30,434 nucleotides of DNA from a virus, in the IMG/VR virus record IMGVR_UViG_3300042691_045130, positions 1 to 30,434 of that record; one strand, given 5' to 3'. The notes under the pieces are model-generated. The model did no database searches. It saw nothing but the letters and a program-made list of their open reading frames with translations, and was not told the DNA's origin. The translations under genes and the position numbers were made by a program. This document shows positions 2,295 to 14,820 of this stretch, one piece after another (position 1 is the stretch's first letter; every line of letters begins with the position of its first letter).

Positions 2295-2658
2295 ATCTAT
2301 TTGAAGAATAATTTAAAACTTTTTTTCCTGATGATGGTTTCGGTGGAGGAGGTGGTTCAGTGATAGGTAAATCATACTCGTATACTTTTGGTTGTGATTT
2401 TATTTTACCTTCTGTAATTGAATTTTGCTTTCTTTTTTTATCACCCACAAGACCGAATTTAATGTATTTATACCAAATTCTTTCATGTATATAATATTGT
2501 AGAGGTTTGTAGATAAGTTCAACAATTCCAAAAGCAGCTCCGACTTTGATACTACCTGATGCCCACCACATGGCTAAAAAACCAATTGATGTACTTAGAA
2601 ATCTATAACTAATTGTTTTAGCTAAGTGTCTTTTATATGAAACTTTAATTTGACTCAT
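2293..2658 (-). CDS. DUF2061-family membrane protein
   Basis: This 121-aa protein matches the DUF2061 pattern of a short two-helix inner-membrane protein: KTISYRFLSTSIGF near residues 14-27, a second hydrophobic segment around GAAFGIVELIYKPL, then YYIHERIWYK. The C-terminal 40 residues are an added polar tail with a run of five prolines. The biochemical role of DUF2061 is unknown. Its start overlaps the end of the upstream HAD phosphatase gene by 14 nt, so the two are translationally coupled. Confidence 0.8.
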   Translation of the reverse strand: MSQIKVSYKRHLAKTISYRFLSTSIGFLAMWWASGSIKVGAAFGIVELIYKPLQYYIHERIWYKYIKFGLVGDKKRKQNSITEGKIKSQPKVYEYDLPITEPPPPPKPSSGKKVLNYSSNR

Positions 2659-3034
2659 AATTTTCTATGTTTGGTGGCCCACCAACCGAATCAAATCCAC
2701 CATTTCTTGTAAAGTTTATTCCTACTGCCCTATCTAAATTTGGGTTTTCGGGGTCTTTATCGTTAAATATCACACGAGTTCCTCTTCCACAGTCCATAAC
2801 CAATTTGTGGTATTTCAACCCTATTTTATTTAACTCACCTATCGTATAAGATTCATAAGAACTCGGTCTAGCTGTTGTGACAATTATAACCGCACCTTTA
2901 TCAAACTGAAGATTTAGATAGTCAATTACGTCTTGAATTGGCTCTAATACGGCTGTGGATAATTCGTTAAACTTTCTGTATTTGACAATTGTGCCGTCAA
3001 TGTCTACGAAGAATGTTGGATTTTTTGTTGTCAT
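2645..3034 (-). CDS. HAD-superfamily phosphatase
   Basis: This 129-aa hydrolase has HAD motif I FVDIDGT (nucleophile Asp11, acid/base Asp13), motif II VTTARP (Thr near residue 53-54) and a late acidic segment (FNDKDP, then DRAVGIN) suited to motif III/IV. The compact size resembles phage-encoded capless HAD phosphatases, including 3'-phosphatase domains of nucleic acid repair; the substrate cannot be read from sequence. The gene begins 5 nt after the T-run of a structured leader (3040-3128) that may attenuate it, and overlaps the DUF2061 gene at its end. Confidence 0.82.
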   Translation of the reverse strand: MTTKNPTFFVDIDGTIVKYRKFNELSTAVLEPIQDVIDYLNLQFDKGAVIIVTTARPSSYESYTIGELNKIGLKYHKLVMDCGRGTRVIFNDKDPENPNLDRAVGINFTRNGGFDSVGGPPNIENYESN

Positions 3035-3039
3035 AAAGT

Positions 3040-3128
3040 AAAAAAAAAGTGGTCAGGGACTGATGGGATGTTATACCTCGGAGTCGACTTCCTTAAACTA
3101 CTGCAGATAGTTTCATCAGTATGACCAC
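3040..3128 (-). promoter_or_regulatory. Structured leader with terminator-like hairpin before the HAD gene
   Basis: On the minus strand the outer stem GTGGTCA/TGACCAC (3122-3128 with 3049-3055) continues across a small internal loop into ACTGATG/CATCAGT (3114-3120 with 3059-3065). This encloses a 6-bp hairpin AAACTA/TAGTTT (3095-3100/3108-3113) and a GGA/TCC hairpin. The outer stem is followed directly by nine T (3048-3040), as in an intrinsic terminator, only 5 nt before the HAD start codon. The ACTGATGA strand can instead pair with TCATCAGT at 3191-3198 upstream. The two folds exclude each other, as in an attenuator or riboswitch. No known riboswitch class was recognised. Confidence 0.6.
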
Positions 3129-3134
3129 CACACG

Positions 3135-3206
3135 TTACGGATAGATTTTGTCATCATCACCAATCAAATAAAGTTCTACCAATATTCCGAACTGATGACT
3201 TTCCAC
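3135..3206 (-). CDS. Possible 23-aa leader peptide or gene remnant
   Basis: A GTG-initiated frame of 23 codons ends at a TAA 7 nt before the structured leader. The peptide ends GDDDKIYP and looks protein-like, but there is no ATG and no ribosome binding site. It contains the alternative pairing strand (3191-3198) of the switch-like leader, so translation here could influence that structure. It could equally be a decayed gene end. Confidence 0.25.
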   Translation of the reverse strand: MESHQFGILVELYLIGDDDKIYP

Positions 3207-3244
3207 AACGTTATAATTTATTGTGATAGAAATATAATTTATTA

Positions 3245-3436
3245 TTAAGTATTGTCAAAATTTTTTTTATTCAAATCATGTATAGTTATTTCATCATTTT
3301 TCCAATCTTCCCAAATTTTCCAATTCTTTAAATCTCTCAGAGTATTTTCATGAACTAATACAAATCCCTCAGGTGCAATCCCATCAAATTTTCTGATAGG
3401 ACCCTCTTCATCAATTAGTTTTTTTATATCAATCAT
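3245..3436 (-). CDS. Hypothetical 63-aa protein
   Basis: Unrecognised small, acidic, mixed-charge protein with Trp-rich centre (KNWKIWEDWKND). No signal peptide or membrane segment. It lies 25 nt downstream of the sulfotransferase gene on the same strand and probably shares its transcript. Coding is supported by tight gene packing only. Confidence 0.6.
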   Translation of the reverse strand: MIDIKKLIDEEGPIRKFDGIAPEGFVLVHENTLRDLKNWKIWEDWKNDEITIHDLNKKNFDNT

Positions 3437-4082: not shown

Positions 4083-4141
4083 TACTATTTATTATAAAAA
4101 TTCTGACTTAGAAATAAATTTGTAATACTATAATATGGACG

Positions 4142-4366
4142 ATGGTAAACAGAATAAAGACTTGGAAAAAAACTTTTCAAGACAATCTATCACAAATCTT
4201 TTTGATGTTGGCTCTGTTCTTCAATCCTTTTGGATTCGATGCCGTTCAGTATTCCCTAATATTACTGACAGGAGATTTATGGAAAGCGAACTTCGTTTTG
4301 TATTGTATTGCGGGATTATTTTTTGGGTTATATATCTATTTTCGAAGATTGTCTAAAGTGCCTTGA
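4142..4366 (+). CDS. Small two-helix membrane protein
   Basis: This 74-aa protein has a basic amphipathic N terminus (RIKTWKKTF), a hydrophobic segment around residues 18-31 (SQIFLMLALFFNPFG) and a second around 50-67 (FVLYCIAGLFFGLYIYF), then a basic end. An overlapping frame starting at 4135 also reads through, but this one has the better membrane-protein composition and codon usage. Its end overlaps the convergent gene ending at 4353 by 14 nt. A plus-strand TATTTATT lies at about 4087-4094. No family recognised. Confidence 0.7.
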   Translation: MVNRIKTWKKTFQDNLSQIFLMLALFFNPFGFDAVQYSLILLTGDLWKANFVLYCIAGLFFGLYIYFRRLSKVP

Positions 4367-6279: not shown

Positions 6280-9200
6280 TTACTTACCGAAAGTATATCT
6301 AATACCTAACTGTGCACTCCATACGTCAAATACTGATGAGTTGAATTGGTAAGTTTGTTTTGCCAATACTGTTTGTCCATCAAGAATTTGAGTTGAAAGT
6401 CTGTAAGAAGGAACATTGTTCGCGTCTCTACTTACAAAGTTTAACAACTGAGGAACTGCCGCTCTTTGAGAAACACCCCACTTGTTATTAACCATGTTTC
6501 CGAAGTTAAGGATGTCAGCTCTGATTTGGAAAGTGTTTCTTTTTCCTTTGATTTTTATGAACACATCTTGAGCCACTGAAAGGTCAAATCTGTGTAACCA
6601 AGGAAGGAAAGAAGCGTTTCTTTCAGCGTACTGACCTCTTCTTGTAGAAAGGTAGTCATCTTGAGAAATAAATGATTCGAAAGCCGCTTGTTGTTCAGCT
6701 TCTGTATAAGTTCTTGTACCTACTGTTAAAGTTGAGAAACGAATGTCAGAACCATTTACAGGTACAAACATAAGTTCGTTGTCTCTAACTCTATCACCGT
6801 TAAGGTCACCCGCTACAGTGTAAGAGAATGGGTTATTTTGAGCACCTACGTAACCAATAGTGATTGTAGTTGCTCCACCGTATTTCTTACCATAATCAAA
6901 TCTATAACCTAATAAACCTACGATTCTATTCCTAACAACAAAGTCTGAAGTAGAAAGTTGTAAATCGTTGTTTCCGTTGATAGAACGAGCTGATTGCCAT
7001 GAACCACTCGCGATTGAACCAGCACTCATGTAATCTTCAGCTCTTGATGTAGTCCAAGCTGCATAACCCCAAACTCCTTTCGAAATTGGTTTTTCTAATT
7101 TCAATGTAAGAGACTTGTTGTAAGCACCTTGTTTGTTTGTTAAAACTGCTGCCATAGAAACATTATCATTTACTCTAACACCAGGGTCAGTATTTGCAAA
7201 CAATGCTCTTTTGTCAGGACCACCTAAAGTTCCTACAGGAACATCTTGGTTTGCGTTGTAGTAATGAACTGCGTTTATTGTCTTATTGTAAAGAACTTCA
7301 GCACTTGCCACTAAACCCAACCAAGGTAGTTTTTGGTCGATTGCTAAATTACTTCTCCATACTTGAGGGAACTTGTAATTTGCGTCAGTGAAAGCTAAAT
7401 CAAAAGTTGAAGGTAATGTTGGTGTTTGAGGAATAAAATATTGATTAGGATTTGTAGTAAATCCGTATTGTGATGCTTGAGCACCTGATACATCGATAAA
7501 TCCTGTTAATACACCGTTATTTCCGATTTGGTTTGATAAGAAAACAAATGGAGGTCTACCTGTGAAAATACCTGTACCACCTCTAATTTGAGTTTTCTTT
7601 TCACCTTTTAAATCATAGTTGAAACCGAAACGTGGTTCGAATAACAATTGTGTTTTCGGCATCACGCTCGTGTTTAATTTTTCACCACCACCAAATGTCA
7701 TTGATGTGATTGCAGGATTTTCAAGAGCTGTATTTCCAAGTGAAATTACGTTCGCTCTCAATCCCGTTGTTAATTTTAAATTCTTAGTAAGGTTATACTC
7801 GTCTTGAACATAAAGGTCTAAACGATTAGCTTCCAATACCTGCATTGGTTCAACCGCTCCAGGTAAAGCAGAATAACGAAACTGAAATCTCGCTGGTGCG
7901 AAAGCTGAAGGTCCTCCATTATTAGCAACTGATTGTTTAGCTGCAGTGTAGAAGTCATTCAAACTGTTGAAAATATATACACCGTTCGAAGCTGGGAAGA
8001 ATAAATTGTTTGATTGGTACATTTGATAGTTGAAACCACCCACCAAAGTGTGTTTTTCCAAATATTTTGTAACGTTGTTAGTAACGTTGAATGTCCAATA
8101 GTTCAATTTATTTCCTGGTGTGAATGGGTCAAAACCTACAGAAGTGTAAGTTGCTGAACCTTCTCTGATGTCAATTGTTGGGAACATTTGACTCATGTAA
8201 GCTCTGTCTTCAATTTGTTTGTCATAAGAGATAATCAAATTGTTGTGGAGTGTGTTTGAAAACTTAGAATTCAATTCTAATACACCTGAACGAGTATTAT
8301 CCATAATAATGTATCCACTGTTTTGGAAACTCATTGCGTTGAATTGAGTAGTTCTGTTTCCAGCACCCGCTGACTGAGAGTTAGAAATGTTAATCTCAGC
8401 GGATGAGTTGTGATTAACAAAACGTGCCATTAACTTGTGTTTTGGACTAATGTTCCAATCCAAACGAGTCATGAATTTTCTTGAATCGTTTGTGTTAGAA
8501 TAACCTTCAAAAGGACCTGTTTCATAACCTAAAGTATCTCTCATGAACTTCGAAAGTCTCACCATGTCATCGTATTTAACACGACTTACTTGTGAACCTG
8601 TCAAAGGAGAACCGGTAGAAATCCAAGTTGTGCCTGGTTCAGTTCTAACGATGCTTTCATAGTTTCCAAAAATGAATAATTTATTTTTGATGATTGGTGC
8701 ACCCAATCTAAAACCGAAAACTTTTTCATCAAATTTCTGAGCAGTTACTGTAGTTCCTCTAGCGTTGTCTCCCACATAAGTTTTTGAATTGTTTCTTTGT
8801 GTTTGATAAACACTTCCTTCAATTTCGTTAGTTCCAGAACGAGTAACAGCGTTAATACCTGCACCCACGAAACCACTTTGACGAATGTCAAAAGGAGCGA
8901 CGTTCACCTGTAATTGGTCAATCGCATCCAAAGAAATTGCTGAAGCACCTGTTCTACCACCAGCAGCCGCTGATGAACCCAAACCGAAGTTGTTGTTGAA
9001 CTGAGAACCGTCGATTGTAAAATTATTCAATCGAGAATCCTGTGCTCCAAAAGAACGACCATCACCAAAAGGATTGTATTTGGTAATTCCGTCAATTGTT
9101 CTTGCACCCGTAATTGGAATTGTAGTTAGTTCTCTACGTCCGAATTGTTGAGCTGCCCCTGTTTTGTCTTTTGAGAATAAATTGTTTCTCGTTCCAACAA

Positions 9201-9555
9201 TAGTAACTTCTTTCAACTCTTTTGATTCAGAAATAAGAGTTACGTCAACATTACTTGTAACCCCAAGAAGAGTGTTGATGTCAGTTAGTTCAGCTTTTCT
9301 GTAGCCTACGTAACTAACGTGAATAAGATAAGGTCCTCCTACACGTACAGCCGGAATTGAGTAGACACCCGTTTTGTTTGTGGTTGCACGGTATTCTGAA
9401 CCTGTTGGTTGGTGTACCGCATGAACTGTAGCACCTACCAAAGTCTCACCTTTTTCATTTTTAACTACACCTGACAGGGAAGAAGTTGTAATCTGCCCGA
9501 AAGATGTGATTGTCACGAATAAGGTTAAAAGTGACATCAAGATTGCTTTTTTCAT
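6280..9555 (-). CDS. TonB-dependent outer-membrane receptor (Oar-like)
   Basis: This 1091-aa protein is a complete TonB-dependent receptor. A signal peptide (1-21, ending FGQ) leads to a carboxypeptidase-regulatory-like domain (about 25-110: SLSGVVKNEKGETLVGATV, then NKTGVYSIP). A possible TonB box LKEVTIVG (114-121), a plug domain (about 130-245, with IDGSQF and INAVTRSGTNE) and a long beta-barrel ending in the aromatic strand LGIRYTFGK follow. Family members import large substrates across the outer membrane using host TonB/ExbBD energy. It is much longer than other genes in this region and resembles host receptors in full, with no frameshift, so it looks like a functional acquisition from a Bacteroidota host. 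A role in uptake, or in altering the cell surface against other phages, is inference. A terminator and promoter motif lie directly upstream. Confidence 0.92.
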   Translation of the reverse strand: MKKAILMSLLTLFVTITSFGQITTSSLSGVVKNEKGETLVGATVHAVHQPTGSEYRATTNKTGVYSIPAVRVGGPYLIHVSYVGYRKAELTDINTLLGVTSNVDVTLISESKELKEVTIVGTRNNLFSKDKTGAAQQFGRRELTTIPITGARTIDGITKYNPFGDGRSFGAQDSRLNNFTIDGSQFNNNFGLGSSAAAGGRTGASAISLDAIDQLQVNVAPFDIRQSGFVGAGINAVTRSGTNEIEGSVYQTQRNNSKTYVGDNARGTTVTAQKFDEKVFGFRLGAPIIKNKLFIFGNYESIVRTEPGTTWISTGSPLTGSQVSRVKYDDMVRLSKFMRDTLGYETGPFEGYSNTNDSRKFMTRLDWNISPKHKLMARFVNHNSSAEINISNSQSAGAGNRTTQFNAMSFQNSGYIIMDNTRSGVLELNSKFSNTLHNNLIISYDKQIEDRAYMSQMFPTIDIREGSATYTSVGFDPFTPGNKLNYWTFNVTNNVTKYLEKHTLVGGFNYQMYQSNNLFFPASNGVYIFNSLNDFYTAAKQSVANNGGPSAFAPARFQFRYSALPGAVEPMQVLEANRLDLYVQDEYNLTKNLKLTTGLRANVISLGNTALENPAITSMTFGGGEKLNTSVMPKTQLLFEPRFGFNYDLKGEKKTQIRGGTGIFTGRPPFVFLSNQIGNNGVLTGFIDVSGAQASQYGFTTNPNQYFIPQTPTLPSTFDLAFTDANYKFPQVWRSNLAIDQKLPWLGLVASAEVLYNKTINAVHYYNANQDVPVGTLGGPDKRALFANTDPGVRVNDNVSMAAVLTNKQGAYNKSLTLKLEKPISKGVWGYAAWTTSRAEDYMSAGSIASGSWQSARSINGNNDLQLSTSDFVVRNRIVGLLGYRFDYGKKYGGATTITIGYVGAQNNPFSYTVAGDLNGDRVRDNELMFVPVNGSDIRFSTLTVGTRTYTEAEQQAAFESFISQDDYLSTRRGQYAERNASFLPWLHRFDLSVAQDVFIKIKGKRNTFQIRADILNFGNMVNNKWGVSQRAAVPQLLNFVSRDANNVPSYRLSTQILDGQTVLAKQTYQFNSSVFDVWSAQLGIRYTFGK

Positions 9556-9771: not shown

Positions 9772-9780
9772 AATCTGCTG

Positions 9781-10173
9781 TGGAGAAGACGGGAGTCGAA
9801 CCCGTGTCTTGTTCGCGACAACTATAAGTGACTACACGTTTATTACAACATTGTTTCTCAATGTTCCGAAATATTAGGTTTGATATATGTGAGAAACCCA
9901 CCTACAAACAACTTGGTCTCAGAATTATTTTAAACGAGCTCTGACCTGTGACCCGTATATTGGACTTCTGTTCCTAGGTTAATGTCCTAACCGACCCGAG
10001 TGTCGTGACTTAAATTAAGCAACAACAGTAGCTTCTTCAGCGATTAAACCGATAGCAGCCATCTTAGCAAAAGTATTGCCATTTGTTTTTTCAAATCAGT
10101 TGATAAAGGAGTTAACTCAGCTCCTACGTGCCACCTATAACTACACACGCCAATCAATTGCCATGACTTCCCC
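9781..10173 (-). ncRNA. ssrA: tmRNA with an atypical tag
   Basis: A 393-nt tmRNA that rescues stalled ribosomes and tags nascent chains for proteolysis. The tRNA-like ends pair as GGGGAAG/CTTCTCC with discriminator A at 9781, and the T arm CGGGTTCGACTCCCG is typical; CCA is not encoded. Helix P2 pairs TATAGGTGGC..ACGT with ACGTGTAGTCACTTATA. The tag frame ends at TAA 10015-10017 and reads AIGLIAEEATVVA at its C-terminal end. If the resume codon is GCT at 10066-10068 the tag is AKMAAIGLIAEEATVVA; GCT at 10057 is an alternative. It ends in VVA instead of the common LAA. Phage-encoded tmRNAs are known in some large phages and mycobacteriophages. The promoter at 10194-10224 is of host type. Confidence 0.94.
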
Positions 10174-11312: not shown

Positions 11313-12158
11313 ATGACAAAAAGTTTAGAGTTACTCAAAGAAGTTTTAAGTGTTCCAACACACACATACAAAGAAGATTTAATGGTTCTTTATCTAACCA
11401 AATGGTTGGAAGAAAATCAAATCGAATATTATCTCGATGAAAAAAATAATGTGTATGCAACAAAGAAACCGGTTGGGGATTTACCTGAAGGTTTTTATTT
11501 CCCTTGTGTAATATCTCACACAGACACTGTACACAAACTTGACACGATTAACGTTGTTGAAGAAAATCTTCCAAATGCTCAAGGAGCACTCAAATTATCT
11601 TTAAAGGCATATAACGACCAAGGTAATCCCACTGGTATAGGTGGAGATGATAAATGCGGAGTGTTTGCATGTCTTACATTACTCAAAGAACTTCCATATT
11701 TGAAAGCAGCGTTTTTCGTTTCTGAAGAAACAGGTTGTCACGGTTCAAGAAACGCAGACCCTGAATTTTTCGAAAATGTTGGATATGGAATTCAGTTTGA
11801 CGCACCTGAAAACTGGATGATTACTGAAAAATGTTTCGGTCAAATTCTATTCGATAGAGATACGGACTTTTTTAAGGCGTGTGACAAAGTACTAACTGAA
11901 GGTATGGTCCCAACGGATATGGAATATATGGTCCATCCATATACAGATGTTTATGCCTTGAGAGGAAAGTTTGATTTTTCTTGTATTAATTTCTCAATAG
12001 GGTACTATGATTACCACACAAAAAATGAATACGTTGTTGTGGAAGATGTTTACAATGGAATCGATATGGGAAGAAAAATGATTGAAGAACTTGGGTACAA
12101 ACTACATTTTAAAAAGGCTAAGGAATATAGTTACAACCAAAACCCTTATAAGGTTTAG
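11313..12158 (+). CDS. M20/M42-like zinc peptidase
   Basis: This 281-aa metallopeptidase has the dinuclear zinc signature of the MH clan: ISHTDTV (His69, Asp71), GIGGDDKCG (bridging Asp112 or 113), SEETG (catalytic Glu138, zinc Glu139), a possible Asp163, and His235 in DYHTKNEY. Relatives (peptidase T, M42 aminopeptidases, M20 deacylases) trim peptides or amides. At 281 residues it is shorter than typical M20 proteins (about 370-450), suggesting the dimerisation (lid) domain is missing or reduced. The start was set at the second in-frame Met (11313), since TATATTTGC, a Bacteroidota -7 element, lies just before it. The gene is convergent with, and overlaps by 4 nt, the HExxH protease gene. It could finish degradation of Clp-generated peptides (inference). 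Confidence 0.82.
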   Translation: MTKSLELLKEVLSVPTHTYKEDLMVLYLTKWLEENQIEYYLDEKNNVYATKKPVGDLPEGFYFPCVISHTDTVHKLDTINVVEENLPNAQGALKLSLKAYNDQGNPTGIGGDDKCGVFACLTLLKELPYLKAAFFVSEETGCHGSRNADPEFFENVGYGIQFDAPENWMITEKCFGQILFDRDTDFFKACDKVLTEGMVPTDMEYMVHPYTDVYALRGKFDFSCINFSIGYYDYHTKNEYVVVEDVYNGIDMGRKMIEELGYKLHFKKAKEYSYNQNPYKV

Positions 12159-12804: not shown

Positions 12805-14820
12805 TTATCTTCCTTTCTTAACAACCTTAACAGTATCTTCTTCTACTTTGACAATATAGTTTTTTCCTTCTACTAATTTGTCGGTCAAAACTTCTTCTGA
12901 AATCAAATCCTCGACTTTATCTTGGATTGCTCGTTTGAGAGGTCTTGCACCATATAGTTCATCGAATCCAACTTTTGCGAGATGTTCAGTCAAGGTCTCA
13001 TCGTATGTGATTTTATAATTCATTTCGTTGAGACGTGAGATTAACTTATCAAGTTCAATCTTAGTGATTTTTTTAATATCATCTTGACTAAGAGAGTTGA
13101 ATACAATTGTATCGTCAATACGATTCAAAAACTCAGGAGAGAAGAAATTTTTCATTTCCTTCATCAATACTTGTTTCTTGGCCTCTTCATTACTATAAGT
13201 GCTAGAACCAAACCCAATACCTGTTCCAAAATCTTGTAATTTCTTTACACCGAGGTTTGATGTCAAAATAATCAAGGTATTTTTGAAATTGATTTTACGA
13301 CCTAAGCTGTCAGTTACATGTCCATCATCTAAAATTTGAAGAAGAATTGTGAACACATCTTTGTGCGCCTTTTCAACTTCGTCGAAAAGAATAACTGAGT
13401 ATGGTTTATTTTTTACCTTTTCAGTCAACTGTCCACCTTCTTCGTAACCTACGTAACCTGGAGGAGCACCTACTAATTTAGATACGGTATGTTTTTCTTG
13501 ATATTCACTCATATCAACTCTGATTAGGGAGTCTTCACTTCCAAACATTTCTTTTGCCAATTGTTTAGCTAAGTGAGTTTTACCCACACCTGTCGAACCC
13601 AAGAAAACAAATGAACCGATGGGACGATTTGGGTCTTTGATACCAAGTCTGTTTCTTTTGATTGCCTTAGCAATTTTCCTAACAGCATCGTCTTGTCCAA
13701 TGACTTTACCTATTAATTCCTTATCCAAATTGACAAGAGCTTTAGTGTCATCAACACTCATTTTATTCACAGGGATTTTGGTCATAGAAGAAACCACATC
13801 ATACACATCCTCAACGGAAATTTGTTGTTTGTTGTTAATCATTTCTTCTTCGAATTTCTTCTTCTCAGTATCCAATTTGTCCAACAATTTCTTTTCCTTA
13901 TCGCGTAACTGTGCCGCTTGTTCGTAGTTCTGTTTTTTTACTACATCAACTTTTAACTGACGTATTTCAGCCGCCTTCTTTTTCAATTCTTCGATTGATT
14001 CAGGGACCTTGAGTTCTGTCTGCATTCTTGCACCTACTTCATCCAAGATGTCGAATGCTTTATCAGGGAATTCACGGTCGGTGATGTATCGGTCTGCAAG
14101 TTTAACACATGATTCGATGACCTCATCCGAATATGAAACCTTGTGATAACTTTCATATTTCTCACGGATGTTTTTGAGAATTTGGATTGTTTCAACAACT
14201 GTTGATGGGTCAACAACAACTTTTTGGAATCTACGCTCTAGTGCCCCGTCTTTTTCTATATTCTTTCGGAATTCATCGAGGGTTGTAGCACCGATAATTT
14301 GAATCTCACCGCGTGAAAGAGCGGGTTTGAAAATATTGGAACCATCCATAGACCCCGCCGAGTTACCAGAACCAACCAATGTGTGTACTTCATCAATGAA
14401 TACAACAACGTTCGGATTGGATTGTAGTTCTTCGATGATAACTTTCATTCTTTCCTCAAATTGGCCGCGATATTTTGTTCCTGCGACAACAGAGGTAAGG
14501 TCTAAGTTTACGATACGTTTGTCAACTAAGTTACGGGGACAATCACCACTTACAATTTTCATTGCCAGTCCCTCAACAATTGCGGTTTTACCACAACCTG
14601 GTTCTCCGATAATAATTGGATTGTTCTTTTTTCTTCTTGAAAGAATTTGTGCAATTCTCAAGATTTCTCTGTCGCGACCTATAACTGGGTCCAACTTACC
14701 TTGTTCTGCGAGCTTATTTAAGTCTCGACTAAAATTATCCAACACAGGGGTTGGACTGTCTGATGATTGTTTTTGTTTCTTGCTCATCATTTTTTCGTCG
14801 TCATCCATTAAATCATTCAT
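12805..14820 (-). CDS. ClpC-like AAA+ unfoldase lacking the N-domain
   Basis: This 671-aa Hsp100 ATPase has two AAA+ modules. D1 shows Walker A GEPGCGKT (72-79), Walker B VFIDE (140-144) and arginine finger LERRF (194-198). D2 shows GSTGVGKT (408-415), ILFDE (477-481), arginine finger NRIDD (566-570) and GARPLKRAIQ. Between them lies a UVR-like coiled coil (about 295-330: KKQNYEQAAQLRDKEKKLL), typical of ClpC. The double Clp_N repeat of host ClpC (about 140 residues) is replaced by a 28-residue Asp/Met/Lys-rich tail. Residues 535-537 are IGF, the tripeptide that docks into ClpP, so it probably feeds host ClpP rather than acting as a ClpB disaggregase. It is divergent from the Hsp20 gene. Loss of the N-domain should change adaptor and substrate choice (inference). 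Confidence 0.93.
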   Translation of the reverse strand: MNDLMDDDEKMMSKKQKQSSDSPTPVLDNFSRDLNKLAEQGKLDPVIGRDREILRIAQILSRRKKNNPIIIGEPGCGKTAIVEGLAMKIVSGDCPRNLVDKRIVNLDLTSVVAGTKYRGQFEERMKVIIEELQSNPNVVVFIDEVHTLVGSGNSAGSMDGSNIFKPALSRGEIQIIGATTLDEFRKNIEKDGALERRFQKVVVDPSTVVETIQILKNIREKYESYHKVSYSDEVIESCVKLADRYITDREFPDKAFDILDEVGARMQTELKVPESIEELKKKAAEIRQLKVDVVKKQNYEQAAQLRDKEKKLLDKLDTEKKKFEEEMINNKQQISVEDVYDVVSSMTKIPVNKMSVDDTKALVNLDKELIGKVIGQDDAVRKIAKAIKRNRLGIKDPNRPIGSFVFLGSTGVGKTHLAKQLAKEMFGSEDSLIRVDMSEYQEKHTVSKLVGAPPGYVGYEEGGQLTEKVKNKPYSVILFDEVEKAHKDVFTILLQILDDGHVTDSLGRKINFKNTLIILTSNLGVKKLQDFGTGIGFGSSTYSNEEAKKQVLMKEMKNFFSPEFLNRIDDTIVFNSLSQDDIKKITKIELDKLISRLNEMNYKITYDETLTEHLAKVGFDELYGARPLKRAIQDKVEDLISEEVLTDKLVEGKNYIVKVEEDTVKVVKKGR

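Follow-up and report, generated by a model that had tools for sequence, protein, structure and literature searches.

What is the segment between positions 3,040 and 3,206 of this phage DNA, which lies just upstream of a gene for a HAD-like phosphatase? An earlier note on the window (the whole 30,434-nucleotide stretch that was analysed) had read it as a switch-like leader with two mutually exclusive folds, in which a segment B pairs either with a segment A or with a segment C. Judged by comparison with related phages, the B-C fold, composed of two helices (P1 and P2), is the core of a new family of structured phage RNAs. We read the segment, with a probability of about 0.6, as encoding a small structured RNA of the phage that pairs with itself and is usually its own transcript, rather than as a switch-like leader of the HAD gene.

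The locus and the proposed two-state fold

3245..3436, minus strand: ORF of 63 aa that always precedes the RNA (IMG/VR relatives)
3135..3206, minus strand: small ORF, GTG start, 23 codons, VESHQFGILVELYLIGDDDKIYP (coding-like substitution in relatives)
3198-3191, minus strand: segment A, TCATCAGT (string check)
3128-3122 / 3055-3049, minus strand: GTGGTCA/TGACCAC stem, P1 (string check, covariation, predicted ensemble)
3120-3113, minus strand: segment B, ACTGATGA (string check)
3065-3059, minus strand: segment C, CATCAGT (string check)
3048-3040, minus strand: nine T (U9) after P1, intrinsic-terminator-like (string check)
3034-3032, minus strand: ATG of the HAD gene (string check)
2645..3034, minus strand: HAD-like phosphatase gene, just downstream (PHROG matches)

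A base-by-base check placed the three segments, the P1 stem, the start codon and the run of nine T exactly where the earlier note had put them on the minus strand, and the 23-codon frame with its GTG start is present at 3206-3135. The claim that the B-C fold and the U-run behind it resemble an intrinsic terminator also holds in the window, where a GC-rich stem (P1, 7 bp) is followed by U9. A consensus terminator scanner, which allows loops of 3-8 nt only, did not list P1-U9 of the window.

The second fold is a different matter. The 8-bp match between A and B is a real string match in the window (duplex z of -3.8 versus shuffles), but an A-like complement of P2, sought in the upstream regions of 30 homologues, was found in none of them, and the mean z of the A-B duplex over all 31 copies was +0.17 versus shuffles. 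Covariation among homologous leaders and the energies of the two folds had been proposed as checks; covariation is strong for the B-C fold and the A-B pairing is confined to the window. In the window's predicted ensemble the A-B fold has a probability of 0.00. When forced, it is 14.7 kcal/mol worse, and it is still 3.8 kcal/mol worse before C has been transcribed. Segment A pairs instead with TGATGAC just downstream, inside a hairpin of its own. An A-B antiterminator was rejected because it lacks support from homologues and its fold energy is unfavorable, and the U-run is absent from several copies, which means that what is conserved cannot be a terminator switch. Thus, a two-state switch is not supported. 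Competition of A and C for B that is tied to translating the 23-codon frame is already refuted as a conserved feature, and overall we give this switch a very low probability.

The segment is also not a leader specific to the HAD gene. Regulation of that kind was ruled out by the variable gene that follows the RNA: the next gene is often PspC-like and sometimes a tRNA gene or DUF2061, and many copies have a promoter of their own. The HAD-like gene, which matches a PHROG polynucleotide kinase family (E of 3.6e-9) and another HAD-type family (E of 1.5e-13) and is far below the cut-off of TIGR00099, is not a constant partner. The order of the operon 3' of the RNA is broadly kept, even where single genes are lost. 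A gene for a PspC-like membrane protein of 60 aa is the usual next gene (L063, L095, L116, L203); the window lacks it.

A conserved four-way junction in related phages

All searches combined found the RNA at 35 phage loci (34 distinct sequences), constantly placed between the 63-aa gene and whatever gene comes next. In IMG/VR, 20 relatives of the HAD protein were found. The window's leader is unchanged at five of these loci (L001-L004 and L012), the L006-L009 group has a diverged copy, and the others have none. A search anchored on the 63-aa gene (3245-3436) returned 80 IMG/VR loci; this gene matches neither Pfam nor PHROG families, and no relatives of it turned up in isolate phages or GTDB genomes. 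The first six copies served to build a covariance model, which gave 38 matches at an E of 1e-13 or better; wherever the 63-aa gene was the anchor, the match lay shortly downstream of it. Matches of the core had E values of 1e-14 to 1e-28. Degenerate-pattern scans contributed further copies, and several of their matches were discarded as chance occurrences within genes.

The family is new to the databases searched. The earlier statement that no known class was recognized agrees with the Rfam searches: Rfam 15 (GOLLD, ROOL and OLE included) gave no covariance-model match to the window element above threshold, a permissive threshold gave only weak unrelated matches around it (E up to 10), and in four homologous loci it found only a tRNA. 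The RNA was found neither in phage isolates nor, by pattern scan, in GTDB species genomes. There was no convincing second copy per genome in 14 whole records (11 matched, one weakly), and in 14 records without the RNA at the locus a covariance-model search found no copy elsewhere. Two further classes were rejected. CUGAUGA resembles a hammerhead by eye, but the string is not conserved (CTGATG, GTTGGTG and ACAAGTG all occur) and hammerhead models give no match; nor is the cloverleaf likely to be related to tRNA or tmRNA, as there was no ARAGORN call and no T-loop was seen.

3049..3128, minus strand: conserved RNA core, four-way junction with P3, P4 and P5 (covariance model, covariation, RNAalifold)
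3120-3114 / 3065-3059, minus strand: P2 (covariation, predicted ensemble)
3095..3113, minus strand: hairpin P3, loop U-CUGCAG, palindrome at 3106-3101 (stem covaries)
3080..3092, minus strand: hairpin P4, loop A-GUCGAC, palindrome at 3088-3083 (loop covaries)
3066..3077, minus strand: small variable hairpin P5 (GG..CC closing pairs, variable length, 93% of cells paired)

All 31 aligned relatives retain P1 and P2, in which compensatory changes are numerous (99.5% and 100% of cells paired, respectively), and the pairing probability of the two helices is at least 0.98 in the window's predicted ensemble. The 31 copies were aligned with MAFFT blind to structure, and RNAalifold on this alignment recovers the same four-way junction. 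When P1-P5 and both loop palindromes, written as pairs, are counted (31 pairs), 96% of cells are paired. Changes on both sides occur in 18 of the 31 pairs (0 of 500 shuffles), and there are 111 compensatory cells versus 31 in shuffles (0 of 500); sliding the 3' partners abolishes the signal. The minimum free energy of the window sequence by itself is unremarkable (z of -1.9), so the case is carried by comparative evidence. P4 in particular is weak in single-sequence folding, with a probability of 0.3-0.4. Comparison among relatives establishes both the family and the fold on the transcribed strand.

The pattern of change also bears on whether the element works as RNA or as DNA. In a rough tally of the pair table there are about 32 G-U cells and 2 A-C cells, and this excess indicates that the fold belongs to an RNA of this strand. 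A DNA element, with the palindromes as protein-binding sites and the stems as DNA hairpins (e.g., of an origin), would fit loops that are perfect DNA palindromes. However, the predominance of G-U over A-C marks the RNA of one strand, the element has a single strand-specific position downstream of the 63-aa gene, and it is flanked by promoter and terminator, all of which make a DNA-level role very unlikely.

Window positions 3121 and 3093 (alignment columns 10 and 38) tend, by eye, to change together, U with A and A with C (T10/A10 and A38/C38; exceptions L108 and L070). This might be a non-canonical tertiary contact.

Transcription unit and neighboring genes

3229..3259, minus strand: Bacteroidota-type promoter, TTTG (3259-3256), 19 nt, TATATTTC (3236-3229) (consensus match)
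3202..3211, minus strand: 5' arm of P0, an optional closing helix, ACGTTGTGGA, pairs with 3132-3141
3132..3141, minus strand: 3' arm of P0, TCCGTAACGT, pairs with 3202-3211

Most copies of the RNA appear to have their own promoter. For promoters of Bacteroidota, the literature employs TTTG-N18/19-TAnnTTTG as a consensus; the window fits nine of its ten positions, and at least 15 of the 31 copies have a perfect match at the corresponding place. About two thirds of the copies (~20 of 31) have a promoter of this type upstream, and the mean score over the 31 copies is 9.0 versus 7.7 in shuffles. A sigma70-like scan of the window also finds TTGACA-16-TATATT at 3258-3231. No obvious promoter was seen in L191, L193, L195, L203, L080 and L140, where the core is embedded between two genes of a single operon.

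The phages that carry the RNA appear to be an uncultured T4-like lineage: T4-like proteins include the large terminase, the portal and the head protease, and the terminase shares 25% identity with its counterpart in Flavobacterium phage immuto, with a metagenomic phage slightly closer. The promoter type, the gene for an outer-membrane protein and the match to immuto suggest that the hosts are probably Bacteroidota. The outer-membrane protein (window 6280-9555) is a cellular-looking beta-barrel of 1091 aa with a carboxypeptidase-regulatory-like domain, in a phage contig. Elsewhere, the window carries a phage-borne tmRNA gene (9780-10173; tag AEEATVVA, the same as that of a tmRNA in the relative L063) and a gene for a ClpA/ClpB-like ATPase (12805-14820; PHROG ATP-dependent protease, E of 6.8e-246). 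At 4135-4366, two overlapping plus-strand frames of 73 and 74 aa end against a minus-strand gene. Both are open in L022, L028 and L032, L203 is similar, and one of the two products, if not both, resembles a small membrane protein.

Between promoter and core there is moderate evidence for an optional 5' domain, made up of P0 and a hairpin with the loop GUAGAA. P0 has a pairing probability of 0.89-1.00 in the window and is kept in the 21 copies examined (94.6% of cells paired versus 90.2% when shuffled, with hand-picked arms); it is absent from several copies. The 5' domain usually spans the small ORF, which is the window's version of a small acidic protein ending in ..W(E/D)xxGDNxxF. Its frame in relatives has a third-position bias (mismatch of 0.53 versus 0.32 and 0.30), by which the small ORF is protein-coding in most of them. 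A small acidic protein of ~25-40 aa (VELDPN...EEWExGDNVTF) is found in L095, L063, L109 and others. In L010 (~1855-1990) and L028 (~12030-12118), homologues of the 63-aa gene that lack the promoter may reach a small C-terminal ORF (..WEQYNDNITF) by -1 frameshifting; candidate sites are A_AAA_AAC (L010 group) and A_AAA_AAA_G (L028 group).

In another reading, the core is an elaborate constitutive 3' terminator or stabilizer of the small-protein mRNA and the tRNA transcript, with loops that bind a phage protein. The core does begin only a few nucleotides past the stop codon of this coding-like ORF, and most copies have a U-run after P1. However, the RNA persists without the ORF in the L116 and L191 groups (in the former the ORF is broken and the RNA retained), the ORF occurs without the RNA in L010, some copies have no U-run, and the loop palindromes would have no explanation. 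We regard this role as improbable.

A cis-acting attenuator or riboswitch, in which the junction is an aptamer or protein site, P1-P2 also acts as the terminator and expression of the downstream operon depends on read-through, is somewhat less improbable, and still unlikely. The operon in question (PspC-like, HAD, DUF2061, peptidase) has a broadly conserved gene order, most copies have the U-run, and the distance to the following start codon is usually 10-28 nt. What speaks most for a role in cis is the L191/L203 group, which is embedded in the operon and has neither promoter nor U-run. On the other side, no alternative pairing is conserved, and the U-run is missing at about 10 of 35 loci (L109, L065, L058, L059, L074, L125, L191, L193, L195 and L203); in three to four of these, P1 too is short. 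Some copies adjoin a tRNA gene at the 3' end and some have neither U-run nor tRNA; tRNA-Thr directly precedes or tRNA-Gly directly follows the RNA in several phages, and tRNA genes can intervene between the RNA and the next ORF. Attenuation also leaves the covariation of the palindromes unexplained.

Self-complementary loops and known systems

Both hairpin loops have kept their self-complementarity in comparisons across the family, P4 through sequence change. The P3 loop is CUGCAG in all 31 aligned copies, an invariance partly conditioned by the search, since CTGCAG was part of some scan patterns. The P4 loop has seven nucleotides and reads A-GUCGAC, A-GUGCAC or U-GCUAGC, plus one GUCGGC (the L092/L045 copy), which is self-complementary only through G-U; the loop is thus strictly self-complementary in 30 of 31 copies and in all 31 when G-U is allowed. 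Columns 43-48 are 100% self-complementary with double changes (0 of 500 shuffles). The neighboring columns 45/46 are CG in 16, GC in 8 and UA in 6 copies and never mismatched; being adjacent, they cannot covary as an intramolecular pair. When all hexamer columns were scanned, only the P3 and P4 loops were self-complementary family-wide. The state of the P4 loop changed 7-8 times on the best tree, which is poorly resolved. P4 was unconstrained in the protein-anchored search and in one later pattern scan. In the last four copies to be found, the P4 loop is again self-complementary (GTGCAC), although one of the scan patterns admits only GT[CG][CG]AC.

We infer that the RNA pairs with itself through two kissing loops. 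Structure-blind covariation, palindromic loops, a promoter of its own, nearby tRNA genes and a variable next gene argue for a self-pairing RNA that would be expressed and act in trans. Against it stand the promoterless, operon-embedded copies, which also fit a cis element, the few P4 states and the weak tree. In the window, the RNA would be ~180 nt, from the promoter near 3260-3229 to the U-run at 3040. The four-way junction closed by P1-P2 would present two self-complementary six-base loops on two hairpins, and two or more copies could pair loop to loop, P3 with P3 and P4 with P4, to give a dimer, or a ring or filament if the two interfaces join different partners. The 3' end would be set by an intrinsic terminator in most phages, and a flanking tRNA gene could set an RNA end via tRNA processing in others; in the L191/L203 group the core would simply lie within the operon mRNA. 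We suggest, tentatively and with some doubt, that a minimal RNA of ~90 nt self-assembles in this way into closed dimers, rings or filaments as a tiny counterpart of the GOLLD and ROOL cages, released by promoter and terminator or by tRNA processing. As for its job, our guess, by analogy with the larger GOLLD and ROOL, is that infected cells make it as a scaffold or to sequester other molecules.

To our knowledge, natural RNA homo-oligomers have rarely been observed, and the phage ones that have been shown, GOLLD and ROOL, are very large. These RNAs range from ~580 to more than 800 nt and have many helices, in contrast to a core of ~90 nt here (~180 nt with the 5' domain). The absence of an Rfam match to GOLLD or ROOL indicates that the new RNA is a member of neither. 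It resembles them in being phage-encoded, often near tRNA genes, and without a known protein partner or function, and in having palindromic loops, which form symmetric kissing contacts there and would do so here. A 2025 Nature study of OLE, ROOL and GOLLD (PMC12286853) notes that phages carry GOLLD and ROOL close to tRNA islands. For OLE and GOLLD it reasoned, as we do here, from adjacent-base covariation between palindromes to kissing loops between molecules, and cryo-EM proved the contact. In loop L9.3 of the OLE dimer the inner tetranucleotide switches between palindromes (PMC12286853), as it does here among UCGA, CUAG and UGCA. OLE differs in being large and bacterial, and no sequence or structural relation to the phage RNA was found.

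The retroviral dimerization initiation site (DIS) of HIV-1 likewise presents a palindrome of six bases in a hairpin loop; in one subtype this is GUGCAC, which is also one state of the P4 loop. The DIS is a single loop in a genomic RNA, whereas the RNA of this DNA phage has two, both on a four-way junction. If our reading is correct, a ~90-nt core with self-complementary loops would be a compact system for the role of RNA assembly in infection, of a size that suits chemical synthesis, compensatory mutation, and crystallography or NMR. Like intrinsic terminators and attenuators, the window has a GC-rich stem, U9 and a start codon close behind; unlike them, the U-run and antiterminator are not conserved here, and an elaborate conserved junction lies inside the stem. 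Thus, a leader that looks like an attenuator can prove to be something else once homologues are compared.
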